A stretch of DNA of 26,342 bases from a virus, in IMG/VR virus record IMGVR_UViG_3300033144_001287, positions 1 through 26,342 of that record; one strand, written 5' to 3'. Below the pieces are notes generated by a model. That model was not told where the DNA came from. It saw nothing but the letters and a program-made list of their open reading frames with translations, and ran no database searches. The position numbers were made by a program, and so were the translations under genes. Below are positions 4,111 to 21,274 of the stretch, piece after piece (the stretch's first letter is position 1; every line of letters begins with the position of its first letter).

Positions 4111-4484
4111 ATCGCTCCGTCGCTGATTATAGTTCGATACTGCCCCTGGGAGGAGAGCGTCACGGACGTTGCCCCATTGATGGTTTGAACCCCGTTCGGG
4201 TCGAGGATGACATCGTTCGCGGCATCGTTTTTCCAGATCGTAACGACGCGGCCTTTTGCTGCATCGCCCGTAGTCGCATCGGGCAACGTCACCGTGACGT
4301 TGCCTCCTGCGCTTGCGACCGAGTACAGGTCTTTGGGAGACCCGACCGCATCGTCAACCCAGGCTGTGAAGTCTGCGGTCATCTGGGCGATGTTGAGATG
4401 CGACCGGAAGAGAAAGTTGGAGTTGATCTTTGTGGGGACGGTCTCGGAGAGGTCGTCCGTAGAGAGCAGCACTTGGTAAGTCAC
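3972..4484 (-). CDS. Small tail fibre/appendage-like protein with out-of-place C-terminal extension
   Basis: A 170-aa protein starting at GTG 4484, which overlaps the previous stop as GTGA and has GAGG about 6 nt upstream. Residues about 60-130 are strand-rich, with NVTVTLPDA, GRVVTIWKNDAANDVIL, and GQYRTIISDGAMWLVIG, a pattern typical of the C-terminal beta domain of phage fibres and appendages, which often ends near a WLVIG motif. Residues 131-170 are a Ser/Arg-rich tail that looks unlike the rest and lies entirely over the start of the 100-aa membrane protein gene in another frame. The tail may be translated overlap, or the natural stop may have been lost. It follows the C1q-like fibre gene, so both likely sit at the virion surface. 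No specific receptor is indicated. Confidence 0.55.
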   Translation of the reverse strand: MTYQVLLSTDDLSETVPTKINSNFLFRSHLNIAQMTADFTAWVDDAVGSPKDLYSVASAGGNVTVTLPDATTGDAAKGRVVTIWKNDAANDVILDPNGVQTINGATSVTLSSQGQYRTIISDGAMWLVIGNVYCIPGWRRRSTRCSSSSSNSTYAWSAWTSQYEATAPRG

Positions 4485-5110
4485 CTGAGCCTCTTTATGT
4501 AGACGAGAGATGCGTTGGGCGTCGAGTCCACAGCCGTTGTCGGCGTGGACTCTCGATCCACCTTGATGAAAAAGAAGTCGTTGGCGGTGAAGAGGTATGC
4601 GAACGGAGTGATGTGTAGCGAGGTCTCATCCTGTCCCGTCGCATCGCGGATGTACCCGCCCTTCCCCTCACTTCCTATTTCTTGCGATGAGTATGGGAAC
4701 GTCCCCGAGGTCATCTTGAAGCGCATGATGCCGTTGTACCTCGCTGCGGCACTCGCCTGTGCGCTCAAGGCCAGCGATGCACTGAGTTCGTAAACCCCGG
4801 TCGTGTTGACGATGAACTTGTGCGTGTTGGTGGCGACATCATGCGTAATGTCCACGCCCCAGGTCAGGCTGTTCGTGTCCCAAAGGAGCAGGTTGTCAGT
4901 CGCCAGGGCGTTTACGTCCTGGCTGACCGAGTTGTAGGCGACAAGAAGCGTTGCCGGAACCGTTGCGGGGATCCCTCCATCGGTTCCGCCGTCCCCGACG
5001 AAGAGGGCTTTCGTGCTCGTTGAGTAGATGGGCTCGCCCTGGGCGGGCACGCCGAGCGTCCCGTCCGTTCGGGCTGTGTCCGTCCCACGCTTGAAAGTAA
5101 TCTCGGGCAT
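4481..5110 (-). CDS. Receptor-binding fibre-like protein: Mtd-type N-terminus and C1q/TNF-like C-terminus
   Basis: A 209-aa protein. Residues about 2-45 (ITFKRGTDTART, then PAQGEPIYST and FVGDGG) match the N-terminal domain pattern of the Bordetella phage major tropism determinant and many phage fibres, used to attach to the virion. Residues about 65-209 look like a C1q/TNF jelly-roll: short strands ending in HKFIVNTTGVYELSASL, RYNGIMRFKMTSG, and a final SLVYIKRL. Such domains form trimers and bind ligands. The start is ATG at 5110; an in-frame GTG one codon earlier is possible, with GGAG serving either. The ATG overlaps the previous stop as TGATG. It lies directly after the hub and a membrane protein gene, where phages commonly place accessory fibres. 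Receptor specificity cannot be read from sequence. Confidence 0.6.
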   Translation of the reverse strand: MPEITFKRGTDTARTDGTLGVPAQGEPIYSTSTKALFVGDGGTDGGIPATVPATLLVAYNSVSQDVNALATDNLLLWDTNSLTWGVDITHDVATNTHKFIVNTTGVYELSASLALSAQASAAARYNGIMRFKMTSGTFPYSSQEIGSEGKGGYIRDATGQDETSLHITPFAYLFTANDFFFIKVDRESTPTTAVDSTPNASLVYIKRLR

Positions 5111-5550
5111 CACTTCTTCTCCTGGTCGTTCTCTTCCGCGTGACCGTTGCCTGTAATGATGCTCCGCAGGTTCGCCATGAGCCCCGTGACGACGAGAGTA
5201 AGAACGGTCGCGCAGGTGCTCACCGCTTTATCCGGTATCGCGTTCGTCGTCAGTGCGATGATGAATCCCGAAACGAGGAGCAAAAGGTAAAATGGACCAG
5301 CCTGAGCAATATGGGCGCGAGCCTTCTCCACCGCTGACATCTGGTAGCTGTGCGTCAGCTTCATTTTCTTGATCTCGGCGCGTAATTCCATGCGGCGGCG
5401 ACGTTCAGCCTGCTTCGCTTCGTTTAGCTTTGCCTTGGCCGAAACGCGCTTCATCTTCAGCGCGGTCTTGAGATCGCGCACAACATGGCGCACCACTGGC
5501 GACTTGAGGGGCTCGTCGTCATCAAAGTCATCGTCGTCGTACTTGCTCAT
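5110..5550 (-). CDS. Two-helix membrane protein with acidic and basic N-terminal segments; possible holin
   Basis: A 146-aa protein starting at ATG 5550 with GAGGAG 8 nt upstream. Residues 5-13 are almost all Asp/Glu, residues 20-80 are strongly basic and helical (KQAERRRRMELRAEIKKMK), and two membrane helices follow at about 85-104 (GPFYLLLLVSGFIIALTTNA) and 109-130 (AVSTCATVLTLVVTGLMANL), with a polar C-terminus. Both termini would face the same side, as in class II holins; the long charged N-terminus is unusual for a holin. It sits between the tail tip gene and the small fibres, 12 bp after the hub gene. It could instead be a virion or superinfection-related membrane protein. Confidence 0.5.
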   Translation of the reverse strand: MSKYDDDDFDDDEPLKSPVVRHVVRDLKTALKMKRVSAKAKLNEAKQAERRRRMELRAEIKKMKLTHSYQMSAVEKARAHIAQAGPFYLLLLVSGFIIALTTNAIPDKAVSTCATVLTLVVTGLMANLRSIITGNGHAEENDQEKK

Positions 5551-5562
5551 GCGATCAGCTCC

Positions 5563-8500
5563 TCAAAAGGTGCCACCGTCAACGTCTCCAGGATCGAACA
5601 GCGGGGCGACGTAACACTTCAGCGTGAACCGCGCCAGGCGCACCTGGAAGGAAGCGGTGGGGCGTGTCCAGACCAGACGCATCTGGCACTTGCGGAAGAG
5701 CACCTCTTTCGGCTCGAAGTCGCGGTATGTCTCAGCGGCAAGGCTGCTCCCGCTAGTCCATCTCCACTGGATCTTGACCGATGCGTTTTCTGGCGTGGAG
5801 CCGAAGTCGTCCATCGGTCCTTCGAGCGACCAGCGGCGTCCCTTCTCGCTCCCAAGTGTGAAGGTCAGATCCGCCAGCGTCTCAGGGCGCACTTGCGAGC
5901 CCTCGATGAGGGCTACAGGCAGCGCACGTTTCGCCGTGGTCAGGTCGATCTCGTTCATTTCGGCGTAGACTGGACCGAGGGCGGTCGAAGGCGTGGTCTC
6001 ATTCCACTGGAGCACCCCCAGCGCCACTTCGAGATCCGCAGGGATGCTTACGAGGTTCGCTGCGAAGTCGTCCTCTGCGATGTTTTCCTGAGTGCTCGAC
6101 TCGTCTCGGAACGCCGCCGAAGTGGTGACGGAGACCGCCTGCCCGAAACGTCCAGACGCGAACTGGGAGCGCGACACCACGGGGAAGTTCGTCGCTCCCT
6201 TTGAGTTCGTCGCGCCTATCGAGATCCCCTGCTGCGTTGTGAACACACGGTCGTCGGGGAGAGCACTGAAAGCTGGCGTCGATATGATCCAGCCTCCCAC
6301 GCGCCCTTCGACGCTCGCAGCGCGAGCCGATTGCGGGGTGACGGTGTATATCTGAGAGAAGCCATCGGTGTCGATCTCGACGGACGGGGCACCCAGGAGC
6401 GGAGGGGTAACTACCGGCGTGACATCGACGAAGGGGCACGACGTAAGCGGTGGTCCGGTTCCACGCCAGCCGACTCGCTGCGCTCGGATCCGATAGGTGA
6501 AGTCCGGATCGAGCGCCGTGTCGTCGTAGCGGTACGACTGAACAGAGAATGGGAGGGTGGCGATATGCCTGGCCGAGCTTTCCCGCCCCGTTGTTCCTAG
6601 CGCGAGGGCCTTATCGGACAACTGGCTGATCCACAGCCGCACCTCTTTGTATGGCATCGTCCCGCGAGGCGGTGTGACCGTGACCTCGATGGCCGCACAC
6701 GACTTCGCGTTCTGGTCTCGATACGGCGTGGCGGTCGCGGAGACGTTGAACGATGACCCCTGCGGCCCGGAACCACCGAACCCGTAGAGTGCGCTGCTAC
6801 CTCCTGCTGTCGGTGGCGCGAGGTCGGATACGGTGAGGTCGCCCATCGTGCCGAAATCGGTATCCGTGTAGACCTCTTCGACGTATTCGAGCGCCTTAAT
6901 TTCACGGTGCATGGTTTCGGGGTTCGTAGTGATCTCGGTTACTACGAGGTCTTCCACAGCCTTGTCGAGTTGTCCGAAGGAGTAGATGTCTCCTGTAGTC
7001 GGCGTGAACGACCTGGGCGAGGAGACGCTGATCTCCGTTCGGGCCGAGACTAGCCCGCTCTCGTCCTCGCTCACGAAGATTCGCTCTGACGTATCGCCCC
7101 CGGTCAACGCATCTGGCTGACGGGTGGACCGCACATAGACTTCGTAGCTCTCGTCCGCTGCGATTGTCACGGGGCGGTCGAGCTGGATACGAGCGCCGAT
7201 CTCGAACGCTGTCGGAGCAGCCGTGTCCGCGTTTGAGTTGTAAAGCGACCCCCACATCAGAGTCCCCCGATGCGCGTTCTCGATGACGTATCGGTTAGTG
7301 GCAGAGCATCCCGCCGACGAACAATCCAACGTCCCGGCCTCTCCGTGGATGCGAGGCCCCCAGAACTGCACAGAAGCATCCCCTCCGCTATTGCCCGCAC
7401 ACATAATTTGCGTGTACAGGACACGTTGCCCCGACGAATCCGTGGGCCAGTCGATCAAAGCTTCCCAGGAGAAGTTAACCTGATACCAGTCGTCGGTGTC
7501 ATCCGTCGTAGAGGTCTGCCTGACCAGGGCGATTTCATCGTCTAGGGGTTGATAATCAGACAAGCTGCCTGAAATATCGAAGGTAATCGTTGGCGGATCT
7601 GTGTTGAAGTTGATGGCGCACTGAGCCCCATCTCCGTTGAGATAGCCGCCAGCAGTTGTCGAGTCCTCGGTGCTCATACGCACATACAGGGTGGCGTTGG
7701 ATGCCGCGTTGTCGCTCTTCAGTCGGACGTAGATCGTGCAGCAGATCGCCTGCTCTCGCAGGCTCCCCGCCGCGAAGCTCGGATTCGGCCAATCCCCAGG
7801 CATGACGATGTTTTGCTGGATGATCGGATTTTGGTTTGCCCCCCCAAAGGCTTCGCTGTTTTTCATGTTGACGACGTACCCTCGCGTCCCAGCGAGGGTG
7901 CCCGTGTCGTCGGGGTAGAACGGTGGGGACTGGCCCGTGTCGTGCCCGATGGAGTTCGTCCCGACGCTGCCGTTTATCTGAGTCCACGCCTTCGTGGTCC
8001 CGTTGGGCATGTTTCCGTCGAGGCTGAGGGGATCACCGAAGCGCAACAGTTGGTTATTCCTCCCACTAGGCGACGGCAGGAACGTGGGAGATCCTGTTTC
8101 TCCGGTGATAACGGACTGATCTGTTGCGTAAGTGTAGTAGACCCGCACCTGGATGTAGTCGCCGTCCGCCGCGCTGCCTGCGCCGTCAGCCGCCGTGTCG
8201 TTGTCGTACCAGACCGTCGCTCTCCACCAGCCGGTGCCGACGACTTCCTCTATTTGGTGGGAGAGGCCATACGGGTCGGTGAGCGTGGGCGAAGAATCCC
8301 CAGGGCTATATTCCGTGGCCCCAAACTCCAAGTTCCCTGAGTTCCAGTCGAATCGGACTGCGTGCGTGGCCCGAACGTACTCCCCATCCGCGTCGAGATA
8401 ACGGTAGATGTTGAGACGCACCGACTGGCTCGCTCCGTAAGCGGGCTCCTTCAGGTAAACGCTGTACTCCTTAACTTGGTCGTCCCCGTCTATCCTGTCG

Positions 8501-11500
8501 AACGGGGCGAGCGGGCTCGCCGTGTTGCCGGGGAACGGATACAGGCCGTCCGCGACCGTCACCATCTGCGCTGACCACGCCAAAGTCGCGTTGTACCCGT
8601 CCCCGCCAACCTGAAGGGCGGGGTAATACTTCCCGACGCTGTTCGCCGTGGGGAGTGCGTAAGCCAAAGCTACTCCGGTGGTGAAGTCAGCTAGGGGCGG
8701 TGTCGTAGAGTCCGCGACGAGGAGAGAGGCTGCCGTGATGACGGACGCGCCACCGTTCTGCGTCCACTCAGCTACGAGATCCCGAGAACCTGGGTGAATG
8801 TTGTAGATCGCAATATCTGCCGCGAGTCTCCCGCTATAACCGTACTGGGGGACATCGTGCGAGAGCAGGATGCGATCACCGGGCAGCGCGTTGATTGCGT
8901 CGGGTCCGACCTCGAACTTGGCCGTCCTGATTTGGAGGTTGTATCGGTTGAGCCTGTAGTAGGCGTCCCTGATGGCCTGCGATCTGCGCGTGATCCCAAG
9001 ACGGGACGACCTCTCTTTGCGTACCTGGCCGAAAGCTGCCGGGTTCTGAATCGAATCGTGGTCAACCAATACGGTACGTCGTTCGTACCCGTTATCCGCG
9101 TCAAGGATCTCGACTTCGAGGGAGTTCGGATTCACCTCGGGAGAGAGGTAGCTCATCTCCAGCGAGCCCTCGACGATGTTCGCCATCGTGTACATCGCGA
9201 CGGGATCTCTTGGGCGGTCCCACACCGGGACGATCTTGCGCCCGAGCTTCACAGGCATCGCCCGGCCTGTCTGGAATACGTCAATGAGCGCGTCCCACGC
9301 GGATCGCTCCTGCTGATCGAACACGCCGTCAAACGTGCATCGCTTTTCGTACTGGCCCGAGCTGCCGAGCACCGTTTCTCCGTGCGCGTCTGCAAACTTC
9401 CTGTTCCCGTAGTGGATATAGACCGCGCCATCCGCGCCATCGCCTCCTGCTGTTGTCCTGTTCGCACCCCCACCAGCTCCCGCGATAAACCCGTCTGCGC
9501 CTGATCCCCCTCCCGCAGATCCGCCCCCGTCAGCCCCCCCGTCAGCCGGGCCATCGGTTCCGATTCCACCGCCGCCAGACCCGAACCGTCCGAACTCTTC
9601 GATGAATACGCCATCACCGCCTTTTCCTGAAGCGTCAGCCGTCCCGTCTGCGCCGACTTCTCCAGAACCACCACCGCCGCCGCCGTTGTGACTCCCCGAG
9701 CCAGTGTAGCCAGTTCCTCCAGCCGCGCCGAATCCAGTGGCCCCCCCGGAGACGGCCTGTGTCGCCGCGCCACCGACTTCTCCCTCTCCACCACCGCCGC
9801 CAGAGCCGCCGCTTGCTCCGACCAGGCCGTCGCCGCCGCCACCGCCGCCGCCCTCGGCCTGGATTGTCGTCGAACCGCTGATTAGCGTAGACGCTGCACC
9901 ATCCGTCCCACTTGCCCCACTTGTCCCCCCGGCACCTCCACCTCCAACCGTAACGGTCCAGGTATCTCCAGGCGTTACGGCCAGTTTCCCGGTGTAGCAG
10001 ACGCCGCCGCCACCACCGCCGCCCGCTCCGTGTGCGCTCACGGCGTCGTCATGTCCCCCACCGCCTCCTCCTCCGACCACTAGCACCGAGATTTCGGTTA
10101 CGTCTGCCGGGACGACCCATGAGCCGCTCGATGTGAAGTTCGCTTCCTGCGGGTTGTGCCCGCTGGGCCAACTCGGCTCGTTGGATGAGTTTTGGCGGTT
10201 CCACCGGCACTCCATCGCCAAGTAAGAACTCCATGTGTGGTATTCGTCAGGTGCGGGTGCGTCCACGAACTCCATCTTGGTTACCAAGAGCCGATTGGAT
10301 GCTTGGTTCGTACCCTGCGCGAAATCGTCGGCTGTCACCCAGGACTGATTAATCGTTCCGTCAGTGATGGTGGCGATGGACTGATACTTCCCAGGTGCCC
10401 AGTTTTCGGGGATCCCGCCAGCAACGTCGGCGGTTCCGATGAAGAGCGTGATGCTGCCGCCATTAAGATCGCTCGTCCGAAACCCGAAGAGATCCCTCGA
10501 ACCGAACGCATCGGGTACGCCTTCGTCGCAGAACTCTGCCCAGGCCAAGAATGCCGGGAGGTCCACGTTCTCGTAGCCGCCCGTAGGGGCGAAGATTGCC
10601 CCGAGCCCGTAATCTGGGGCGGTTATCATGTCGAGAGCAACCCAGCTCGGATTATTCGACCACGCCGTATCGAACACCGGATTGCCAACGTCGCCGCCTT
10701 GCCAAACCTCCAGCTTCTTCCCGTGGACGATAGCTGTGATGTTGGGCTCAGAAGAGTTGATCTGTTCGCTCGCCCGAATGGATGTGGCTAGGTAGGCGAC
10801 AAAGGGGTAGTTGTAGTCCTGAGTTGCCCAGGAGGTGATGGTGTCAATCGTGGTGCGGTCCCGGTCGTCTCGATCATCGGGGTCGTTCGCTGCCGGGAAA
10901 CTGGGCGACTGCTTGAAGACCTCGATGAAATAGTGATCTTTTGTCGGGACGCCTGACTCGCCAAACCAGACCGGGCCGTTTACATCTTGGACAACAGGCC
11001 CGCTGAACTGAAAGTTGGTAGACCCTGCGTCTCCGAAGGCGAAGTTGCGATACTCAAACCCACCTCCTGTGACATCGCTATCGTCCAGTGGAAGACAGAT
11101 ACGGAGATCGTTCGCATAGGCCGGGTCATCAGGCATCGAGCGAATGTCATAGCTCCGGTTGTTGTACGGATCGCGCTGGTTTGCAGCCTGGTTTGCCCAC
11201 GCAGCCACCGTCGCGTCCGAGCCCCCCACCAGCCCGTTATGCAACAGCACCTGCGCGACACCTCCGAGAGAATGCCAGTTGGCGCTGTTGGCGATCACCC
11301 CGATATCTGCCCGTGGGACGTTGCTCGGAGAGCCGAGGTTCAATGTCGGGAAGGGAGGCGAGACATGATCGTAATTAATGACACCGCCCTTCCACAGGAA
11401 CCCCGACGTACTACCGTCGTAGGCGTGGCTGGAGTCGGCAGTCAGTGTAGTCCCGGCCTCGCCCATGCGGAATCCGATCTCTACCCCGTCGATATAACAG

Positions 11501-13137
11501 TGGAAGAGGCCAGGCCCCCCGGTTGAGGTCCAATTGGACCCGTCGTAAGAGAGCGTGATATGTTTTTCGGGAGAAGCACCCGGCCAGTCTTCGCCCGGAT
11601 CAACTCGCCCAATCGGCTCCGTTGACCTCCACCATGACGCCGCGTATCCGGCGGCTGTTTTTTCGTAGGCTTCGACAATAACGTAGATGTCGCCGTCGTC
11701 ACCGCCGAAATCACCGGCTTGGGGTGAGGCGAAGCGTGTCGTCCGAATGCCAAACCAACTGCTGCCGTTGGGCCATAGGTTAGGGCTATCTGGGTTGCGG
11801 AAGACATCCAAGTCTTGTGCAACCTGCCCAACGCCATCCCCCGTGTTATTGGTCCACGATAGAAGCCAGAGGTTCGCACGGATGTAAAAGAAACAGGCGA
11901 ACGTGAATTGAAGGTTTCCGGGGTCTCCCGTTCCTGGCCGAAGGGAATCGAGGCCGATGGACCACAGATTGCCCACCATGTTCTGCACCGCTGCGTACCC
12001 CTGCTGCACTACCGGGAGGTATGTCGGGGGGTCGAAAAGCGTGAAGGGAACATCGACGGTGAAGACAGAATTCGATGCGTTCGTCACCTCAATCGCGGGA
12101 AGCAGAACGACATCCCCTGTCGTAGCGCCAGTGCTGTCCGTGCGCCAATACTGGATCCGTATGGTTGCCGTTGCGTTATCAGGAGTTCCGTCTTCCCCGC
12201 CCGAGAACAGCCCCTCCCATAACAACTGCACGTTACAAAGGTCCGCCTTTGTCGTGAGTAACTGAGACACGAACTGTTCAGTGAGCACCTCGACGATGCG
12301 CGAGGCGTATGGGTAAACCCCCACCGGCTTATCCAATTCGCTGATGGCTGCCGTCCCGTTCGGGATTTCAAACTGGAGGTCGTAGCTCGTCCCGGCGTCC
12401 GTGACGGGTAGTGAGCCAGCTCCCAAGAGTCCCCGGATGGGCTCCTGCGTGCCGCCACCAGTACGCCACTGGAAGATCGTCGGGATGTGCCGCCCGTCGA
12501 TGCCGTTGATGTGAAAGCCTATTCGTTCAGCGATAGCCGCTGATCCCGTCCCGACTATATCGTTGAAGTCTTCCTGGTTGAATACGTCCCCTTGGTAGCT
12601 CCCGAGGCCAAGGATAGGGCCTTGGCTGATCGCATACATAGAGTTCAGTCGTTCGTTATGGCTGATCTGCGATCCTACCGGGGCGTCTCCAGTTACGCTC
12701 TGATTGATGCAAGGAGGAGCCACACGCATCTTCCCGTAGACGACGGGGAGCGCATCGCCTTCTGGGCGGTAGGCGTTGCGGAAACCGTAATAAGAGTAGT
12801 TCTGGCCTCCAAGCTCGTCCTGTACCGGAGGTACCTTTGGGAGGAGCACCCGTATTAGATGCCTGGCCGTAAGGCCGACGAGTGCCCCAATAGCGAGATA
12901 GACCACGAACTCCCCGACGCCTCCCGTTATCGCTGGCGCGAAGTGCAGGAAATCGCCATCGGACACTTCTGGATCGCCGTCCATTACGAGCGATCCGTTC
13001 CGCCACACTACTGCATTCACCCCCCTAAGCCGTGCGGGGGTATATGCAGAGACGCGCTCACCGCTCCTGAAGTTGACACGCTGTTGCGTTCTGCGTTGCG
13101 GCTCAAAAACGCTCTCCAGCTCGACGATGTTCAACAT
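5563..13137 (-). CDS. Giant TipJ-type tail hub / host-specificity protein with inserted lectin-like and glycine-rich domains
   Basis: A 2524-aa protein. ATG 13137 is preferred (GGAGG 6 nt upstream) over a TTG two codons earlier. Approximate domains: residues 30-75 ubiquitin-like with a hydrophobic segment at 75-96, like a lambda gpI domain joined to gpJ; 105-170 the TipJ start with the ALPVVYGKMRVAPP motif; 385-665 a laminin-G/concanavalin-like insertion (CYIDGVEIGF); 735-850 core hub (ALDMITAPDYGLG); 1000-1241 glycine-rich domain; 1265-1420 hub core resumes (DQQERSAWDALIDVF); 1530-1670 and 1715-1925 two jelly-roll, carbohydrate-binding-module-like segments (YSVYLKEPAYG, GWWRATVWYD; CTIYVRL, DWYQVNFSWE); about 2120-2230 FnIII-like; then a C-terminal strand-rich region. 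The hub caps the tail and contacts the host; lambda gpJ is 1132 aa, so this is more than double. It overlaps the NlpC/P60 gene by 7 bp. Confidence 0.85.
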   Translation of the reverse strand: MLNIVELESVFEPQRRTQQRVNFRSGERVSAYTPARLRGVNAVVWRNGSLVMDGDPEVSDGDFLHFAPAITGGVGEFVVYLAIGALVGLTARHLIRVLLPKVPPVQDELGGQNYSYYGFRNAYRPEGDALPVVYGKMRVAPPCINQSVTGDAPVGSQISHNERLNSMYAISQGPILGLGSYQGDVFNQEDFNDIVGTGSAAIAERIGFHINGIDGRHIPTIFQWRTGGGTQEPIRGLLGAGSLPVTDAGTSYDLQFEIPNGTAAISELDKPVGVYPYASRIVEVLTEQFVSQLLTTKADLCNVQLLWEGLFSGGEDGTPDNATATIRIQYWRTDSTGATTGDVVLLPAIEVTNASNSVFTVDVPFTLFDPPTYLPVVQQGYAAVQNMVGNLWSIGLDSLRPGTGDPGNLQFTFACFFYIRANLWLLSWTNNTGDGVGQVAQDLDVFRNPDSPNLWPNGSSWFGIRTTRFASPQAGDFGGDDGDIYVIVEAYEKTAAGYAASWWRSTEPIGRVDPGEDWPGASPEKHITLSYDGSNWTSTGGPGLFHCYIDGVEIGFRMGEAGTTLTADSSHAYDGSTSGFLWKGGVINYDHVSPPFPTLNLGSPSNVPRADIGVIANSANWHSLGGVAQVLLHNGLVGGSDATVAAWANQAANQRDPYNNRSYDIRSMPDDPAYANDLRICLPLDDSDVTGGGFEYRNFAFGDAGSTNFQFSGPVVQDVNGPVWFGESGVPTKDHYFIEVFKQSPSFPAANDPDDRDDRDRTTIDTITSWATQDYNYPFVAYLATSIRASEQINSSEPNITAIVHGKKLEVWQGGDVGNPVFDTAWSNNPSWVALDMITAPDYGLGAIFAPTGGYENVDLPAFLAWAEFCDEGVPDAFGSRDLFGFRTSDLNGGSITLFIGTADVAGGIPENWAPGKYQSIATITDGTINQSWVTADDFAQGTNQASNRLLVTKMEFVDAPAPDEYHTWSSYLAMECRWNRQNSSNEPSWPSGHNPQEANFTSSGSWVVPADVTEISVLVVGGGGGGGHDDAVSAHGAGGGGGGGVCYTGKLAVTPGDTWTVTVGGGGAGGTSGASGTDGAASTLISGSTTIQAEGGGGGGGDGLVGASGGSGGGGGEGEVGGAATQAVSGGATGFGAAGGTGYTGSGSHNGGGGGGSGEVGADGTADASGKGGDGVFIEEFGRFGSGGGGIGTDGPADGGADGGGSAGGGSGADGFIAGAGGGANRTTAGGDGADGAVYIHYGNRKFADAHGETVLGSSGQYEKRCTFDGVFDQQERSAWDALIDVFQTGRAMPVKLGRKIVPVWDRPRDPVAMYTMANIVEGSLEMSYLSPEVNPNSLEVEILDADNGYERRTVLVDHDSIQNPAAFGQVRKERSSRLGITRRSQAIRDAYYRLNRYNLQIRTAKFEVGPDAINALPGDRILLSHDVPQYGYSGRLAADIAIYNIHPGSRDLVAEWTQNGGASVITAASLLVADSTTPPLADFTTGVALAYALPTANSVGKYYPALQVGGDGYNATLAWSAQMVTVADGLYPFPGNTASPLAPFDRIDGDDQVKEYSVYLKEPAYGASQSVRLNIYRYLDADGEYVRATHAVRFDWNSGNLEFGATEYSPGDSSPTLTDPYGLSHQIEEVVGTGWWRATVWYDNDTAADGAGSAADGDYIQVRVYYTYATDQSVITGETGSPTFLPSPSGRNNQLLRFGDPLSLDGNMPNGTTKAWTQINGSVGTNSIGHDTGQSPPFYPDDTGTLAGTRGYVVNMKNSEAFGGANQNPIIQQNIVMPGDWPNPSFAAGSLREQAICCTIYVRLKSDNAASNATLYVRMSTEDSTTAGGYLNGDGAQCAINFNTDPPTITFDISGSLSDYQPLDDEIALVRQTSTTDDTDDWYQVNFSWEALIDWPTDSSGQRVLYTQIMCAGNSGGDASVQFWGPRIHGEAGTLDCSSAGCSATNRYVIENAHRGTLMWGSLYNSNADTAAPTAFEIGARIQLDRPVTIAADESYEVYVRSTRQPDALTGGDTSERIFVSEDESGLVSARTEISVSSPRSFTPTTGDIYSFGQLDKAVEDLVVTEITTNPETMHREIKALEYVEEVYTDTDFGTMGDLTVSDLAPPTAGGSSALYGFGGSGPQGSSFNVSATATPYRDQNAKSCAAIEVTVTPPRGTMPYKEVRLWISQLSDKALALGTTGRESSARHIATLPFSVQSYRYDDTALDPDFTYRIRAQRVGWRGTGPPLTSCPFVDVTPVVTPPLLGAPSVEIDTDGFSQIYTVTPQSARAASVEGRVGGWIISTPAFSALPDDRVFTTQQGISIGATNSKGATNFPVVSRSQFASGRFGQAVSVTTSAAFRDESSTQENIAEDDFAANLVSIPADLEVALGVLQWNETTPSTALGPVYAEMNEIDLTTAKRALPVALIEGSQVRPETLADLTFTLGSEKGRRWSLEGPMDDFGSTPENASVKIQWRWTSGSSLAAETYRDFEPKEVLFRKCQMRLVWTRPTASFQVRLARFTLKCYVAPLFDPGDVDGGTF
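9412..10140 (-). other. Glycine-rich domain inside the tail hub gene
   Basis: Codes for roughly residues 1000-1241 of the hub. It opens with a strand segment (SGSWVVPADVTEISVLVVG), then has repeated runs of 6-7 Gly separated by short Ala/Ser/Thr stretches, and ends at GAVYIHYG. The DNA is a visible GGC/GGA-type low-complexity stretch. Poly-glycine helical bundles of this sort occur in phage adhesins such as S16 gp38, where Gly-rich helices display receptor-binding loops. Confidence 0.75.
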
Positions 13138-13577
13138 GGGCAACCTCCCGCGATGCGATACACCCCGGAGATGCTGTGCGTCATAAACCGATTCATCGTT
13201 GCAATCTGCCCACGCCTCATCGACCGCACGCCTTGGGTGTGGGTCGCGGTCAAGAACGTGCCGCGTGACGGTTCAACAAGGACGTAAAGGTGACGCGCCA
13301 TTCCATGCTCATCGCAAGCCAGCACGAGGTCTCCTGTTTTCGTTGCGTCGGAGACCACGCTCCCGATCCGGTCGAAACCGGCTTCAAGACTCGAAAGGAA
13401 AGACCCGATCTCCCCCTCCTCTCCCGCCCTGTTCGCCGCTCGGTAGGGCGACGATTCAGGAGGGGTCGCGCCGGTTCGGCGCAAGACCTCCTCTGCGAGC
13501 GTGGAGCAGTCCATCCCAGATCTGTCCGTGCCGTGGAGCTTCCAGGGAATCGAGAGGAGGTCGTGCCACATCACCAT
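13131..13577 (-). CDS. NlpC/P60-type peptidase, tail tip (lambda gpK-like)
   Basis: A 148-aa protein whose ATG overlaps the previous stop as TGATG. The motif GMDCSTLAEEVLRR supplies Cys24 as nucleophile; GDLVL (82-86) and ARHLYVLV with His96 match the following strands and catalytic histidine of NlpC/P60 cysteine peptidases, and HTQGV near 113 could carry the third polar residue. Family members cleave peptide bonds in peptidoglycan cross-links; in tail tips they help the tail cross the cell wall at infection. The position between an L-like gene and the hub gene is the same as lambda K and gene transfer agent gp14. The C-terminus ends CPC, with no known role. The hub gene starts 7 bp inside the end of this one. 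Confidence 0.8.
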   Translation of the reverse strand: MVMWHDLLSIPWKLHGTDRSGMDCSTLAEEVLRRTGATPPESSPYRAANRAGEEGEIGSFLSSLEAGFDRIGSVVSDATKTGDLVLACDEHGMARHLYVLVEPSRGTFLTATHTQGVRSMRRGQIATMNRFMTHSISGVYRIAGGCPC

Positions 13578-14260
13578 CAGATCGAGCCCTCCGTTGTTGG
13601 CGTCGGGATTCCGGGGAATCCACCGAACCGATCAGGGTGCTCTACGGTGACACCAGCCGCCGCCTCCGAAGCGCCGTGGACCTCGCAGCCGTTCGCACCA
13701 TCGAGAGACTTGTCGCAAGTTGCCAGGAATTCGGCATCGCTCGTATCGACGGAGTATCCGCACGCGCCCCCCCGATATTGATGACGGCAAAAGAAACGCA
13801 TCATCCTCTGCGCGGGGAAGAATGTCTGGTACAGCGGGAGGTCTCCGAGCCGCGCCGAGCATGCCTCTTCGGTCGCTGTCATGCTCATTATTCTGAAATC
13901 GTGCTCGATGATCGGAGCGAACTCAAGCGCCTCCATGTTTGCCAGGAGGATCCGGACGGGCTGCCCGATGAGCCCCCGGTAGCTCTCAAGTGTCGCGATG
14001 ATCTCACGCGAGACGTTGGAGGCCGTCAACGTCACCTCGGGGAGATCGCCCGTCTCGCTTTGCCTGACCACCGAATGCACGATGGGGAACGGATAGTAGA
14101 TGTTGCCGCGAAACGATATTTGCTCCTGAGTCCTGACGAAGCGGTAGCGCGTCGGAGGTGTTGTCGGCACCTCGATCTCGTAGAGCCAAACCCACTGGGC
14201 ACCCGTCGCCAGCAGGTTCTTCTCGGCCATCAGAAACGCATCAATCCCCTGGACGCTCAT
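13577..14260 (-). CDS. Tail tip protein, lambda gpL-like / DUF2163-position, with four C-terminal cysteines
   Basis: A 227-aa protein (lambda gpL is 232 aa). Residues 20-150 form the strand-rich body (YRFVRTQEQISFRGNIYYPF, then EVTLTASNVS and VRILLAN). Near the C-terminus, Cys158, Cys167 (GGACGY), Cys182 and Cys192 (NGCEVH) are spaced like the cysteines of gpL, which bind an iron-sulfur cluster in lambda; GGFPGIP at 213-219 is the typical end. The protein connects the distal tail ring to the hub. The order Dit-like, this gene, NlpC/P60, hub matches lambda M-L-K-(I)J and gene transfer agent gp12-gp15. Start ATG 14260 overlaps the previous stop as ATGA. An extra Cys134 lies outside the cluster motif. 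Confidence 0.75.
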   Translation of the reverse strand: MSVQGIDAFLMAEKNLLATGAQWVWLYEIEVPTTPPTRYRFVRTQEQISFRGNIYYPFPIVHSVVRQSETGDLPEVTLTASNVSREIIATLESYRGLIGQPVRILLANMEALEFAPIIEHDFRIMSMTATEEACSARLGDLPLYQTFFPAQRMMRFFCRHQYRGGACGYSVDTSDAEFLATCDKSLDGANGCEVHGASEAAAGVTVEHPDRFGGFPGIPTPTTEGSI

Positions 14261-16914
14261 GCGACGATCAGCTCCTCGACCGAGAACGCGATGTCATATA
14301 TCTTCGGGGCGACCTCGGAGATGACCAGAGTATCATCCGTGAACCACGCATTGACCGTCTCGGTTTCGTCTGCCGTGCCTGAACCTGTGCCGTCGTCCGA
14401 GATCGGAACGACGAAGGCAAACGGTACTTCCATCCCACTGTGATCGTTGAAAAACGTTTGGAGCGATTGGTAAACGCCCAGGCTGGCCGCTCTGACGATG
14501 ACGCGCCACCTTCGCCTGGCCTTCGACGCCGCGGGGGAGGTGTAGGCGTGCCCCGAGTCGAACGGGATCCTCCTGATTGCGAGCGACGATTCCACCGTGA
14601 CCTCGACCTCTACGTTGTGGATCCCGCCGCCGCTGATGCCGAGCGCCCCCGCCGATGTGTTGAGTTCTCCAACGGGGGTGCCCTCGCCTCCGACGACGAT
14701 GGACACCTGGGAGTCCGGTCCATCTCCGCTGACCGGATCTGGTTTTAGAGCGCCCTCGGTCCAGAGCTTTGCCTGCGGCGGATTGAAAACAAGGTTGCCA
14801 GACGCATCGAATTCCGGCCTGGTCGGACGGAACCAGAAACCCTCTTGGCGACCTGAAAAGTGTTGAGGCCCCAGATCAGGTACGATGATCCCTTGGCTTT
14901 GGTGGCCGGGGTCGTCGAAGTTTACGGTGATCCCGCCGAACGTCACCTCGTAGAGCGCCAGTGCATCCGGGGCTGTCCCGTTATCGTGCGCCTCTGCCCG
15001 AAAGTCGAAGGTCTTGAATGCGGGGTCTCCTGTCGTTGGGTATAGGTCGAGGGCGGTGATCTCGCCAGCGGTGAGAGTGTGGCGAGCGATGACCGTGGTA
15101 TTCGCATCGTTCGGAGCCGAGTCATAGCTCACGTTTCGATAGGCGAGCGTCATCGAAGCTCCCAAAACAGAGCCGGTCCCCCCGTGCCCCGATGAGTTCA
15201 TGCCATTCGTGCCCCAGGTCAAGTAAGCCGTCAATCCGTTGAAGGTGTTTCCGTTGAACGACCCGCGCAACATAATTCCGAACTCGTATGTAATGTTGCC
15301 CAGAGGAGCCGATGCACTCTCAAACCCGGCCCTGAAATCTACGGACCGATGGTGATTGAAGAACTGCGTCGATGGCCGTTCATGGACAAAGACGCGCATC
15401 ACACTAGAAGGGAGCTGGTTATTGTTGTGGATCGCATCGTAGTCTAGCGTCACATAGTCGTTCGGGTCGTTGGGGTCTCCCTCGGGATCCTGAACACTCG
15501 TCTGGAGCATCAGCCTTCGGATCTCGTTGTTGCCCCCGCCGAATCCTGGCGTGTAGGCGTCGAAAGTAAACAGCCCGTTTACCGAGTTGCCTGTGTGCGT
15601 GAAGCTGTCCGAAACAGGAAGGATGATGTCAGGCCCGGTCGTCCCCGTGCCCGTCACCGACCGCTTGAACTCGTCGCGGTAAATCACGGTCCCCGCGCTC
15701 AGGTCCGAAACGTCCACGGATGCGACGGCCTCGAAAGCACCGTAGTCGAACGGGTCGGGAATGGACCCATCGGGTGTCAGGCGATCCCTGATGTTCATAG
15801 TGCGGTCGCGCCCCATCCCCCAGCCGAACGTGGTTCTAGCCGAAGTGGTTATCTTCCCGGTGCCTGTGTCCTTGACCAGCCCCGAAACGGCTGTGTGCGT
15901 CACGCCGGATCCTGGCACCACATAGTCATTGTTCCCGAATACGTCGTCCTTAAAGAGCTGCTGCTCGGATCCGCTGTGGCCGAGGTACGCATTCAAATCG
16001 ACATCGGATCCGTTGGTCTCGCAGGTAACGCGGAGGGAGTAGTTCGAGAAGTCAATGCCGCTCACCCCACCGTCAATGACCTGGCGGATCAATCGTCTGG
16101 CTTCTCCGCTGTCATCCGAGGTGTTGAAACTGTGCGCCAGCCACAGCTCCGCGTAGAGATCGACCCGGTTGTCCCCCACATTGACTACGGGATAGACGCA
16201 TAGGCTGTAATGGTCAACCTTGGTGCAGTACCATCTCCGCGAGCTTGCGTTGTTCGGAGAATCGCCAAAACGGACTTTCGGCGACCCGGTGCCTGCGCGG
16301 AAATACAGGGCGTTCCCTAGCCACGCCATCCAGAGCTGGGGGTCATCTGGCGTCCCTCCACCGGGGGTAACGCCTCTCGCGGGGCCAGCGATAGGAGTGT
16401 AGTTGCCCACGGTAACGGCATGGGTGCCCCCCATCCCCGTATGGTTGATGTCGGTCGAGGCCGTATCGCCCCTCGGGAATGGGAAGCGCCCGCCCGCTGT
16501 CGGTGACGCCGTGCCAGATCCGCCGAAGCTCGACCCGACCGCAGAAGAGGCTCCGGTGGACATCCGAAACGTGACCGTGTAATTGATGTCGCCTCCATCC
16601 AGGGCGTCGTCTACGCGGCACAGGACCGAACGGATGTCTTCTGGGCCGTTCATGCCGAGGTCGGTCATCAGCGCCGGGTACGACTCCGCGACGTTGTTGT
16701 CGATGAAGAGGAGCTGAAACCCCCTGCTCTCCATCTCCCCGTCCTCCCGAAACGGGTACTCACCGGGGGGGTCGGCACTTCCAACGTCTTCGTTGGGGTC
16801 GAAACCTAAGTACCAGAAATACCAGGGCGAGACGTAATCGGTGGCGTCGAGGACCAAGCCAACCAGCCATTTCGGCGCGGCGAAGGTCTCATCGGGAGGA
16901 AGGGTCTGTGCCAC
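14257..16914 (-). CDS. Very long distal tail (Dit, gpM/DUF2460-like) protein with lectin-like N-terminal part
   Basis: An 885-aa protein starting at GTG 16914, with GGAGG 8 nt upstream, 4 bp after the tape measure stop. The last 120 residues or so (from about 765) look like the distal tail domain: ARRRWRVIVRAASLGVYQSL, then LQTFFNDHSGMEVPFAFVVP and a terminal YDIAFSVEELIV, matching the pattern of gpM/DUF2460 proteins that form the ring between tube and hub. Usual relatives are about 110-250 aa. The preceding 750 residues are mostly strand and loop, with two jelly-roll-like stretches (around 100-350 and 350-690, for example YSLRVTCETNGSDVDLNAYL and ITYEFGIMLRGSFNGNTFNG), suggesting decorated lectin-like domains. 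Such evolved Dits are known in phages of lactic bacteria. The N-terminal 80 residues are unrecognised. Confidence 0.65.
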   Translation of the reverse strand: MAQTLPPDETFAAPKWLVGLVLDATDYVSPWYFWYLGFDPNEDVGSADPPGEYPFREDGEMESRGFQLLFIDNNVAESYPALMTDLGMNGPEDIRSVLCRVDDALDGGDINYTVTFRMSTGASSAVGSSFGGSGTASPTAGGRFPFPRGDTASTDINHTGMGGTHAVTVGNYTPIAGPARGVTPGGGTPDDPQLWMAWLGNALYFRAGTGSPKVRFGDSPNNASSRRWYCTKVDHYSLCVYPVVNVGDNRVDLYAELWLAHSFNTSDDSGEARRLIRQVIDGGVSGIDFSNYSLRVTCETNGSDVDLNAYLGHSGSEQQLFKDDVFGNNDYVVPGSGVTHTAVSGLVKDTGTGKITTSARTTFGWGMGRDRTMNIRDRLTPDGSIPDPFDYGAFEAVASVDVSDLSAGTVIYRDEFKRSVTGTGTTGPDIILPVSDSFTHTGNSVNGLFTFDAYTPGFGGGNNEIRRLMLQTSVQDPEGDPNDPNDYVTLDYDAIHNNNQLPSSVMRVFVHERPSTQFFNHHRSVDFRAGFESASAPLGNITYEFGIMLRGSFNGNTFNGLTAYLTWGTNGMNSSGHGGTGSVLGASMTLAYRNVSYDSAPNDANTTVIARHTLTAGEITALDLYPTTGDPAFKTFDFRAEAHDNGTAPDALALYEVTFGGITVNFDDPGHQSQGIIVPDLGPQHFSGRQEGFWFRPTRPEFDASGNLVFNPPQAKLWTEGALKPDPVSGDGPDSQVSIVVGGEGTPVGELNTSAGALGISGGGIHNVEVEVTVESSLAIRRIPFDSGHAYTSPAASKARRRWRVIVRAASLGVYQSLQTFFNDHSGMEVPFAFVVPISDDGTGSGTADETETVNAWFTDDTLVISEVAPKIYDIAFSVEELIVA

Positions 16915-16918
16915 CGGC

Positions 16919-19900
16919 TCACCCTCCCCGCATCGTGTTCCTGAAGAGCCGGTCCTCGGTCATCGCTTGGCGGACGATGGATCTGATAGTGTCTTGCCGC
17001 TCGACCAGTAGCTCGTCCACGCCACGCGCATCAACCGCGTTGATCGTGAACGAGATCGAGGTCTCTCCACCGCCTCTCATCTCGACCGGGATGGAGCGCC
17101 CGTCAGGCAGAGGAACGATTGCCTCGTTCATTTTGCCCTCACCGATGACGGCCATGTGCGGCTCCTTGACGATGGAGCCCCCCATCGCGTATCCGCGCAC
17201 TGGGAGCGCACGCCCGAGCCCCATCGGAATCGCGGCGCTCAAGCCATCAGGGACGACGCCGCCCTTGGCGAACTCCATCGCGGGCTTCCAGTCGATTGCG
17301 GTGCGCGGCCCGAGGCCCCCGCCAAAGACGCCGCCATCGGCTACGAGCGCCCCGGCAGCGCCCTGATTCGCTATTGCATCGGTAACGGGGCTTGAAGGAT
17401 CGGCAATAAAGTCCAGCGGTGCAGACACAGGATTAATGAACGTCAGACCCAACCGGATCGCTTGCAGAATCAGCATCTGAATAATCATCGCTGAGATCTG
17501 CCTCAAGAACTCCTTGGCAAAGTCCTTCCACGCCTCGTTCGCTGACTTGGAATCGTCGATGAAACTGCTGAAGGCGTTTGTCATCCCGGTGACGAAGGAG
17601 TTGAGGGCTCCGCCCGTAACATCTGCGATGGCGGTGCCCAGCTCGGGGATCTGGTCGATGAACTGCGCGAACCCTGTCTTGAGTCCTTTCACCACCGGGC
17701 TGAGTCCCTCCAGCGTTCGGAGGTAGTTGAACAGGGCCGCATCGGCTTCTAATGTCTTGAGCCCCACCGTCTCCAGGTCGAAGATGAGAGCGCCGAGGGA
17801 TTCCTTCTGCTCCGAAGAGAACTTGTCCGAGATGGGCTGATCGAACAGCACCTTCAACTTCGCCAGGTCGTCGCGGAACTGCGCTAGCTGAAGCGTCGGT
17901 GTAACGTCGAACGAGGCGTACTGAGTTAGATTGGCAAGCGACGGGTCCAGGGACTCGGCCAACGTGGTGCCTAGCTTCGTGAACGACGCCTCCCATTCGA
18001 GAGTTAACAAGCGGCCCGACCTGATTCCCTCGACCATCGCTTCCAGGTGCGCCCGATCTTCTACGGTGAACTCCAAGGTGATCGGCTTGTTCGCAAGCTC
18101 TTGTTCCGCCTGAGCTAACATCTCCTTCAGGATTTCCAGTTCGAGCTTTGGCGTAACCTCGAACTCGGCGTACTGGCTCACGAACTCAAGCGCACCGCCA
18201 AGGGACTCGGCCAAGTTGGTTCCGACCAGCCTCGCGTTCGCCGCCACCTCTGCGGAAGCCAACGTAGTCTCCTTCCAGCGGTCGAGGAAGAGCTGGACCA
18301 TCGCCAACTGTTCGGGGTCCAAGAACTCCTTCATCCCCGCTCTCAGCGGCGTTGCGCCCTCTTCGGGAACGCCGTAGATGGCCGAGATAATGTCATCGAG
18401 TTCTTTTTGTGCCGCCTCAAAATCAGCCTTGAGAAGCTCGAAGTTCATCTTCGGCGTGATCTCGAAATCCCCCGCCAGCCTCTTGAACGCCGCGCCCACG
18501 GTGCTCGCCAGGGCCGCGCCTTGGAGACTGGCGAAAGCTGCGTACTTCTTCTCGATGTCTTTTAGCTGGCGCTTATCAACCGCAGCCTGTGTCTTGAGGT
18601 TATGCGCCATAACCTCATCGGCAGCCTTCAACTTAGCTGCCATCGTCTTGTCGATCTGGGCCTGGCTCAGATCGTTGTCTTCTTTAAGTCGCTCACGGAG
18701 CAAACTGAGTGCCTTGGACTTCTCTACGGCCAGTCCGAGCAGGGCTTCCTTGCTCCTGAATGCGACCATAGCCCTTTCCTTTGCAAACCCATCGGCCATC
18801 CCCTTGAGCCGTATCTTCTCCATCTCTAACAGGAGATCCACGTTCTCCTTTATCTGTTCATGCGTCCCTCTCAGGATCCCACCCCAGTCAAACTGCTCAC
18901 TGATCTGCCCAGCCATCTCCCTCATCAGGCCCACGTTCACGGTGGCGTCTGCGATCCCCTCTTTGAGGATCGTCCCGTCGTCGATCATCTTCTTCCATGT
19001 CAACTGCGTATCGTTCAGCTCAATCCCGAACCTCTCTGCGGCTTCCACCAATACAGAAGAATCCCTCTTGAGCCCCCCAAGAATGTCCTTCTCTTCCGGC
19101 AGCTCTGCAACAAAATCGAACTTGGCGAGTTTCCCCCACGCCGCCATCTCTTCGAGGGATTCAAGGAAGATGACTCCCGCTTGAGCCATCGCACCCCCCA
19201 GGCCATCCTTGAACCCAAGGGCGAACTGTTTTGCCGACTTCGAGCCGAACTCGCCGGTAGCGTGGGGCACCTTGAGCTGCTCAAAGTCCAAGGGAAGCAC
19301 GGCTAGGGTGTCCGCCGCAAAAAACCGCTCCTTAAAGACCCCCCATGCCTCGCCCGCAGTTTTTGTTCCGTCGATGACGCTGCCGAGAGCTTCTGCTATT
19401 CCTGAAAAGACCTTTGGGACAGGTTGCTGTGAGAACTTCTCATACGCCGCCCTGCTATCTGACAGTACCTCTATGTTCTTCCGCAGCTTCTTGTCCACCC
19501 GATCAATGGCTGCATTGATGTCCGAGCCGTGCTGGCGGGTGGTCTCGTTGGCGAGGCTAAAGAACTTCGCAAGCCTTTTGGGGTCTTCTTCTCCCCACAC
19601 CCTGAGATCCATCGCCCTTTGGGTCTCATCGCGGAGACGAATCGCCTCCTCAAGGTTTTTTTTGTAGTTGGCAATCGTCTCTTCCTGCCCCCCAATAACG
19701 ACCTGCACGAGTTCCGCCGTGACCAATTTCGCCCTCGCCGCCGCAACTGCCGAAGCTGTCACCGCTACGTTGCGTGCCTCTTCTGCCAGCTCCCCGGCAC
19801 GCAGCTCCTTGTTGAGCCGCTTAAGCTCAAGGCCATACTCAGCCAGGGCTTCCTTCGCCTTGTCGATTTTGACGAGATCTTTCCCCCTCTCAAAGGGATC

Positions 19901-21274
19901 CCGTGGCCTCTGTGGATCGTTCAAGGCATAGAGGTCCGTTATCTCCATCCGAAGACCCGACATCGAATCCTTCACCTTCTCGATGCCCCTCTCAATGTTG
20001 GAGATCAGGGGGTCAAAGGTGAAACCCCGGATCAGCCCAACGGTAGATTGAAGCCCGGCGAGTGCAGCAGTCCCAATCGCTGCTCCCGCAGCCGCGAGCG
20101 GTGCCAACTCCTCGATACCTTCCTTAACGCCTCCTGCCGTCTTCTGAAACTCATCGAGATCCTTCTCACCGTCTAGCACGATCTCCACAACCTCTTTTAC
20201 CATCCCTTCAAACCCCTGCACGACCGCCTCTTTCATCACAGCAAAGCGTCGTTCCGTGGTGTCCATCATCTTCTTGAAAGCCTCCTCGGTCTCGCCCGAA
20301 GCGCCTCCAATCATCCGTAGCTGCTTGGCGAACTGCCCAGCCTGCTTGCCAGTCAGCGCCATGAGAGCCTTCATGCCTTCTTGGCGTCCCATCAACTTGA
20401 TGATCTCGTCGCCGCTCCCGCCCGTGGCATCCGCGATGTCCCGCATCGCCTTGGCGAGGCCCTTCGACCGGATCGCGTTCATGCCCATCAGGTTGTTCAG
20501 CCTGGGGTAGAGCACCTTCGCAACTTCCGCTTTTCGCAGGAACGCCGTGAACAGCGAGGTCATCTGCGTAACGGCCTCGGATGCCGATAGACCGGAAAGC
20601 GTGAGCGTGCCAACCGCAGCCGAAACCTCTTCAAGAGACACTCCGAGAACCGCCGCCTGGGGGATCACGCGCCCGAACGCAGCGGCAGTCTCGGGGATGG
20701 TGAGCTTACCTAGCCTCACCATCTGGAAGATCATGTCGCTGGTCTTCTCGATGCCCTCTTTGGTGACGGTCTCCCCGTAGGCGTTGATGATCGTCGTCAG
20801 GAGATCGACGGATTGCTTCGTCGTGGCAAGACCGGCTACAGCGAGCTTGCCCGCCTGCCCCATCAAGACGAGAGCCTCGGCTGAATCGGTGACACCGGCA
20901 GAGAGCGTTTGATAGAGCCCCTTGGCAACCGCTGGCGCTGGATTGCCGAGCTGGATGGCGAGCTTACGCACCTCCGCTTCCGCCTCCGCGAACGAAACCG
21001 TGGTCTCGTCCATGATTGTTCGCACCTCTCCCATCGCCTTCGAGAACTCAAGAACGCGCCGAACACCCATGCGTGCCCCAAAGAAGAACGCCATCGCCGA
21101 CGCTGCGGCCTTGAGACCGAGCGCGTACTTCTTGAGCGTCCTCGTTACCCCCGCGAAGGCCCACTTCGCCTTATCGGCAGCCTTCTTGGCGTTTGTCCCA
21201 AACATCCGAAGGGACTTCTGCGTGAAGTCCCTTAGCCTGACCTGGTACTCAAGTGTCTGTTTGGCTGTAGCCAT
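16919..21274 (-). CDS. Tail tape measure protein
   Basis: A 1451-aa protein. Residues about 60-370 match the TP901-type tape measure core (FSKAMGEVRTIMDETTVSF, GLYQTLSAGVTDSAEALVLM, AAAVGTLTLSGLSASEAVTQ). Two hydrophobic stretches lie at about 391-413 and 1260-1288, typical of proteins ejected into the host envelope. The middle is long coiled-coil helix. Degenerate repeats begin at about 935 (FEITPK), 1036 (FEVTPK) and 1120 (FDVTPT), 101 and 84 residues apart. The C-terminus has the Gly-rich and AVIGEGKMNEAIVPLPDGR segments usual for this family. The protein sets tail length: at about 0.15 nm per residue it predicts a tail near 218 nm. It starts at ATG 21274, 3 bp after the chaperone gene; no strong ribosome site is seen, suggesting coupled translation. 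Confidence 0.93.
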   Translation of the reverse strand: MATAKQTLEYQVRLRDFTQKSLRMFGTNAKKAADKAKWAFAGVTRTLKKYALGLKAAASAMAFFFGARMGVRRVLEFSKAMGEVRTIMDETTVSFAEAEAEVRKLAIQLGNPAPAVAKGLYQTLSAGVTDSAEALVLMGQAGKLAVAGLATTKQSVDLLTTIINAYGETVTKEGIEKTSDMIFQMVRLGKLTIPETAAAFGRVIPQAAVLGVSLEEVSAAVGTLTLSGLSASEAVTQMTSLFTAFLRKAEVAKVLYPRLNNLMGMNAIRSKGLAKAMRDIADATGGSGDEIIKLMGRQEGMKALMALTGKQAGQFAKQLRMIGGASGETEEAFKKMMDTTERRFAVMKEAVVQGFEGMVKEVVEIVLDGEKDLDEFQKTAGGVKEGIEELAPLAAAGAAIGTAALAGLQSTVGLIRGFTFDPLISNIERGIEKVKDSMSGLRMEITDLYALNDPQRPRDPFERGKDLVKIDKAKEALAEYGLELKRLNKELRAGELAEEARNVAVTASAVAAARAKLVTAELVQVVIGGQEETIANYKKNLEEAIRLRDETQRAMDLRVWGEEDPKRLAKFFSLANETTRQHGSDINAAIDRVDKKLRKNIEVLSDSRAAYEKFSQQPVPKVFSGIAEALGSVIDGTKTAGEAWGVFKERFFAADTLAVLPLDFEQLKVPHATGEFGSKSAKQFALGFKDGLGGAMAQAGVIFLESLEEMAAWGKLAKFDFVAELPEEKDILGGLKRDSSVLVEAAERFGIELNDTQLTWKKMIDDGTILKEGIADATVNVGLMREMAGQISEQFDWGGILRGTHEQIKENVDLLLEMEKIRLKGMADGFAKERAMVAFRSKEALLGLAVEKSKALSLLRERLKEDNDLSQAQIDKTMAAKLKAADEVMAHNLKTQAAVDKRQLKDIEKKYAAFASLQGAALASTVGAAFKRLAGDFEITPKMNFELLKADFEAAQKELDDIISAIYGVPEEGATPLRAGMKEFLDPEQLAMVQLFLDRWKETTLASAEVAANARLVGTNLAESLGGALEFVSQYAEFEVTPKLELEILKEMLAQAEQELANKPITLEFTVEDRAHLEAMVEGIRSGRLLTLEWEASFTKLGTTLAESLDPSLANLTQYASFDVTPTLQLAQFRDDLAKLKVLFDQPISDKFSSEQKESLGALIFDLETVGLKTLEADAALFNYLRTLEGLSPVVKGLKTGFAQFIDQIPELGTAIADVTGGALNSFVTGMTNAFSSFIDDSKSANEAWKDFAKEFLRQISAMIIQMLILQAIRLGLTFINPVSAPLDFIADPSSPVTDAIANQGAAGALVADGGVFGGGLGPRTAIDWKPAMEFAKGGVVPDGLSAAIPMGLGRALPVRGYAMGGSIVKEPHMAVIGEGKMNEAIVPLPDGRSIPVEMRGGGETSISFTINAVDARGVDELLVERQDTIRSIVRQAMTEDRLFRNTMRGG

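Follow-up and report, generated by a model that had tools for sequence, protein, structure and literature searches.

The window, a virus record of 26,342 bases analysed over its whole length, carries a lambda-like series of tail genes in the order tape measure, DUF2460/gpM-like protein, gpL, gpK and hub (I)J (Table 1). The hub reading frame is uninterrupted over about 7.6 kb of the minus strand, from an ATG at 13137 (or a TTG at 13143) down to 5563. Hub residues are numbered from the ATG at 13137 on that strand, and the TTG start would add two residues. A preliminary description of this DNA had read the gene as a TipJ hub with separate modules between conserved TipJ segments and more than twice the size of lambda gpJ. 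Pfam, PHROG and comparison with the gpJ structures bear out this reading, the lambda protein having 1132 residues. The same description gave no strand for the hub and missed both the gpI part at residues 1–158 and an insert at 882–993. It had put the large size down to glycan-binding-type insertions; such modules are present, and the gpI fusion also adds about 158 residues.

Table 1. Positions of the hub, its segments and the neighbouring tail genes.
Feature	Hub residues	Position	Strand	Basis or remark
TipJ-type tail hub with N-terminal gpI	1–2524	5563..13137	minus	2524 aa
gpI-like part	1–158	12664..13137	minus	phmmer, hhalign, gpI chains, model
FNIII-A-like domain, N-terminal half	286–376	12010..12282	minus	Pfam on relatives, mapped to hub
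LamG/pentraxin-like (ConA-like) domain, site 1	377–727	10957..12009	minus	VIA; clade homology
Family-specific insert, old part of site 2	882–993	10159..10494	minus	between lambda gpJ 319 and 320
Gly_rich_2 domain, site 2	994–1240	9418..10158	minus	Pfam PF21722; comparison with relatives
Conserved TipJ core (Phage-tail_3)	1264–1443	8809..9348	minus	Pfam, alignment, clade identity
First CBM-like β-sandwich, site 3	about 1490–1689	8071..8670	minus	model; Foldseek to CBM22 tandem
Second CBM-like β-sandwich, site 3	about 1690–1945	7303..8070	minus	VIA
End of HDIV region	1985–2095	6853..7185	minus	model to lambda gpJ 357–604; clade conservation
C-terminal part	2096–2524	5566..6852	minus	no recognised lambda-type fibre or receptor-binding domain
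Mtd_N and jelly-roll-like head protein, downstream of hub		4481..5113	minus	210 aa; Pfam Mtd_N, E 6e-6
gpK homologue, NlpC/P60 only		13131..13577	minus	Pfam NLPC_P60
gpL homologue		13577..14260	minus	Pfam Phage_tail_L
Giant DUF2460-like protein, conserved upstream partner		14257..16914	minus	885 aa; family match

The TipJ identity of the hub was supported by several searches. Pfam Phage-tail_3 matched residues 1276–1432 with 42.2 bits (cut-off 23), PHROG 31 ("central tail fiber J") matched the hub with E 5e-73, and sequence comparison with the solved structures of lambda gpJ gave E 3e-20. The NCBIfam model NF040662 (attach_TipJ_rel) reached 109.9 bits (E 1e-31), below its whole-protein cut-off of 140 bits, and the other NCBIfam TipJ models also scored under their curated cut-offs. 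Because the inserts split the match, we describe the hub as TipJ-like and not as a member of NF040662. A model of residues 1241–2140, built from 19 sequences and starting at hub 1241 (mean pLDDT 62.4), matched the solved gpJ 8k35 in Foldseek (E 2e-8) and in VIA (Z 10.9, 240 aligned residues, 5.9 Å); in the latter comparison, lambda gpJ 357–604 spanned model residues 62–858, which correspond to hub 1302–2098. With phmmer, lambda gpJ 257–319 and 320–484 aligned to hub 815–881 and 1264–1428, respectively. As these blocks abut at gpJ 319/320, the whole of hub 882–1263 occupies a single position of lambda gpJ, designated site 2. When hhalign was run with the full-length hub against lambda gpJ, the N-terminal alignment was forced, and the result was used only where phmmer agreed. 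Pfam detected no family in hub 2140–2524.

The first 158 residues match lambda gpI by phmmer (E 6e-7) and the solved gpI chains with E 0.003–0.008, while hhalign aligned hub 1–172 to gpI 14–223 (probability 90, E 1.5e-6). This part consists of a ubiquitin-like β-grasp (about 1–70), a hydrophobic helix (75–98) and a C-terminal "plug" region that contains the motif EGDALPVVYGKMRVAPPCINQSV. The β-grasp and the helix are both seen in the model of hub 1–1000, which was built from 20 sequences and starts at hub 1 (pLDDT 72.7); the β-grasp resembles MoaD 6jbz with a probability of 1.00 but a weak E-value of 0.06. The hub is thus a gpI-gpJ fusion with a ubiquitin-like N-terminus and a gpI C-terminal domain. 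Such fusions, accompanied by a gpK that lacks the JAB domain, have already been recorded (PMC1779556), and the C-terminal part of lambda gpI forms a trimeric plug (PMC10721106). The gpK of the window is likewise of the NlpC-only type recorded for these fusions.

Relatives were collected from metagenomic contigs. A search with the core segment gave six close relatives, 63–81% identical in the core, and alignment searches raised the set to 19 related hubs. These are partly non-independent: over their shared coverage, L025 and L026 show two residue differences, and L092, L095 and L096 are alike. Queried against viral contigs, the full-length hub found one distant relative only, and the N-terminal, CBM or LamG segment alone found none. 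Searched by tblastn against 50,697 phage records, the LamG, CBM and Gly-rich segments gave no match, the test being weakened for the Gly-rich segment by the low-complexity filter. A seven-sequence alignment was too diverse and was dropped.

At site 1, the laminin-G-like insertion previously placed at about residues 385–665 was confirmed by the model and by structural comparison, with a longer extent of about 377–727. In VIA, this segment was closest to 4dqa, a putative carbohydrate-binding protein from Bacteroides (Z 16.4, 207 aligned residues, 3.5 Å), followed by the LamG domain of PAPP-A (Z about 16), pentraxins (Z 13–14.6) and CBM40 (about 11.6). It thus has the ConA-like sandwich fold, with Z of 11–16 to LamG, pentraxin, CBM40 and TSP-N domains. 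Pfam found no match to any LamG family in the hub segment, and Laminin_G_3 matched one family member only (E 0.008); since the Pfam sequence match is missing, we call the domain LamG-like by fold and do not file it under Pfam LamG. The surrounding domain was traced through the relatives. Pfam FNIII-A_GpJ matched L054, L024, L066, L067 and L088, always under the 27-bit cut-off; the first part of the profile precedes the LamG segment, and the last part follows it in L027 (corresponding to hub 704–770, also sub-cut-off). From these matches, the LamG-like domain is apparently nested inside FNIII-A. The top structural match of the whole N-terminal model was the Sf11 tail 9occ_E, with Z 17 but an rmsd of 11 Å over several domains.

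At site 3, the two jelly-roll/CBM-like units described earlier at about 1530–1925 were structurally confirmed, with firmer support for the second, and their outer bounds now lie at about 1493 and 1958. Most residues of the second unit have a pLDDT of about 80 or above, and the first is weaker. The CBM region matched the CBM22-CBM22 tandem 4xup in Foldseek (E 6e-6). The second unit resembled in VIA the Pa193 baseplate (Z 13.4), the K2-2 tailspike (11.7), the alginate CBM 8zqf (11.5) and CBM16 2zew (11.2). Comparison of the two units with each other for tandem duplication gave a weak signal only (probability 29, E 6e-4). In hubs that lack the inserts (L029, L031 and L080), low-scoring segments of 9–39 residues span site 3, compared to about 540 residues here. 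We infer that the pair falls in or near the HDIV insert of lambda gpJ. Part of the second unit (7465–7743, hub 1799–1891) also gave a weak hit to PHROG 9703, "head decoration" (E 5e-4), as if the same type of module were used on capsids.

The glycine-rich block, formerly given as 1000–1241, proved to be a complete Gly_rich_2 domain: PF21722 matched with 56.3 bits (cut-off 24.3, E 6e-15) and was covered from position 7 to 225 of 226. Its exact bounds, 994–1240, were set by comparison with the relatives. The domain was absent from all 19 related hubs, in which the flanks are intact and the sequences ...WPSG and GNRKFAD... directly adjoin. The alignments therefore indicate a clean in-frame insertion, seen in this phage alone among the hubs compared.

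The other modules are shared by the clade. Site 1 measures 313–428 residues in all relatives that fully cover it, and a LamG profile from the close group detected the remaining ones with E-values no worse than 2e-5. The exceptions are L060, where the domain is weak (E 0.011, hhalign probability 96), and the outlying L066, where it is unrecognised. The CBM pair is homologous by sequence or profile in 14 of the 15 relatives covering site 3; L066 has 365 residues there with a weak CBM_4_9 match only. L066, L068 and L069 form a sister clade in which the LamG and CBM sites hold segments of similar length that are unrecognisable. The LamG-like domain is the most divergent segment of the hub, with a mean identity of 25% and 23% gaps, against 40–48% identity for its flanks, 37–41% for the CBMs, 60% for the core and 50% for the end of HDIV. 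By these comparisons, the hub clade inherited the LamG-like domain and the CBM pair from its ancestor, and only this phage is known to have the Gly-rich block. The modules are absent from lambda gpJ and are not integral domains conserved in all TipJ proteins; two of the three, the LamG-like domain and the CBM pair, are nonetheless integral within the clade.

Among the neighbouring genes, the match of the giant upstream protein to DUF2460 is limited to about its last 100 residues and lies below the cut-off, as does that of its L028 homologue (E 5e-5). For the long N-terminal remainder no family was matched, although it is kept in the clade (857–1215 aa in most relatives). No signal of common ancestry was obtained when this protein was compared to the hub modules. 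The Mtd_N/jelly-roll protein is encoded separately here and in most relatives, and the C-terminus of the L028 hub (6752–14158) carries a homologous head (33% identity, E 3e-12), which suggests that the separate protein acts beside the hub. Further upstream, the tape-measure protein (16919–21274, minus strand, 1451 aa) matches at both ends a 1003-aa protein of L084; it has about 400 extra central residues, so that a longer tail is predicted. Two adjacent minus-strand genes, 22210–23676 and 23695–25101, encode paralogous tail-tube-like proteins that both align to the same proteins of relatives.

Modular hubs with inserted binding-type domains have precedents. Lambda gpJ itself has inserts, FNIII-A (72–215) in the HDII-insertion and a β-sandwich (483–569) in HDIV (PMC10721106). 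The lambda gpJ/gpI structures (8iyk, 8k35, 9e7m) share with our hub the HDII-HDIV core, the gpI plug region and inserts in the FNIII-A and HDIV places. Here, in contrast, gpI is fused, a LamG-like domain lies within FNIII-A, two CBM-like domains lie at the HDIV insert region, two further inserts occupy a third loop, and the C-terminus shows no recognised fibre or receptor-binding part of the lambda type. In the J-type hub (megatron) of roseophage R4C, cryo-EM shows one inserted CBM (PMC10276861); this hub and that of RcGTA resemble ours in carrying an inserted carbohydrate-binding domain, although R4C has a single CBM in the peripheral domain, whereas several modules of other folds occupy other loops here. 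The NCBIfam model GTA_megatron matched only one relative, L054, very weakly. CBM insertions in the evolved Dit and Tal of phages of lactic acid bacteria are reported to help adsorption (PMC6669499, PMC10688798), these being Gram-positive phages with other carrier proteins. An AlphaFold study described an extra Ig-like domain (HDII-ins3) in the Jersey hub and a polyglycine "brush" in the LSH1 hub (PMC13243795), such glycine-rich brush domains being proposed antireceptors. The LSH1 brush is C-terminal and our Gly-rich domain internal, and PF21722 may or may not be of the brush kind. The known TAPI-TAPJ fusions share the joining of gpI to gpJ and the NlpC-only gpK (PMC1779556); they are not described with LamG, CBM or Gly-rich inserts. 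The Gly-rich insertion is known only from the present phage.

We favour, as somewhat more probable than its rivals combined, a gpI-gpJ hub of an uncultivated siphophage, with outward lectin/CBM-type modules for multivalent adhesion to surface polysaccharide. The hub would be trimeric, its TipJ core capping the tail tube and its gpI part plugging it, by analogy with lambda for the trimer and the plug. The modules would be housed in loops of the core (LamG in FNIII-A, the CBM pair in the HDIV insert region and the Gly-rich domain in a third loop) and would face outward. Judging from fold and position, the LamG and CBM modules are predicted to bind glycans, and binding to surface polysaccharide would be weak, multivalent and reversible. 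Such reversible binding, in concert with the giant DUF2460-like protein and the Mtd_N/jelly-roll protein, may guide the tip to its trigger. The preliminary description had proposed that multivalent adhesion resides in the hub itself and not in separate fibres. The first half agrees with the lectin/CBM-type folds found between core segments and with the fast change of LamG, binding itself being a prediction; the second half is not supported, as the tail module also encodes the giant DUF2460-like protein and a separate Mtd_N/jelly-roll protein, a version of whose head is fused to the hub in L028. Moreover, the 26-kb record is probably a fragment, so that separate fibres may be encoded elsewhere.

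A β-sandwich fold by itself is no proof of glycan binding, and the same folds also have structural roles. The modules might serve as spacers in the structure or stabilise the virion. More specifically, the LamG and CBM modules may widen or stabilise the tip, or touch the DUF2460-like ring, with adsorption left to separate proteins. Their retention across the clade at similar size, the roughly 40% identity of CBM segments that are not extremely variable, and the separate conserved Mtd_N protein all fit this explanation. However, LamG diverges faster than all other hub segments, the loops concerned hold segments in the L066 clade that are unrecognisable and may differ in kind, and saccharide binding has been proposed or demonstrated for known hub and Dit inserts; we therefore regard a purely structural role as rather unlikely, though it deserves consideration.

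Two further explanations are much less probable. One is that the inserts are ballast from the past, gained neutrally in exposed loops that tolerate them and now lacking a role. This would agree with the inserts that other hubs carry in the same loops; we consider it very improbable, since the LamG-like domain and the CBM pair remain intact and in frame even between hubs sharing only about 30–40% identity. Hardly more credible is an assembly chimera at the Gly-rich block, which would then not be a genuine part of the gene. The block occurs in one contig only, being missing from the 19 relatives, and its GC content is 68%, against 57–60% alongside. On the other hand, it is a whole Gly_rich_2 domain, in frame at both ends and with intact flanks, and its GC excess is explained by glycine codons, its GC3 being lower than that of the flanks.

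On the adhesion reading, the Gly-rich module is the foremost candidate for causing a difference in host range. As a tentative extension, to which we give distinctly less credence than to adhesion itself, the hub may be a socketed platform in which three fixed TipJ loops take whole binding modules; the hub, not fibres, would carry most of the adhesion, and a single in-frame gain of a module such as the Gly-rich domain could change the host. The roughly 19 related hubs, together with one that has an extra Gly-rich module, form a well-bounded natural series for testing inserted lectin-type domains, and this series reveals in which of its loops the TipJ core can accommodate large modules.
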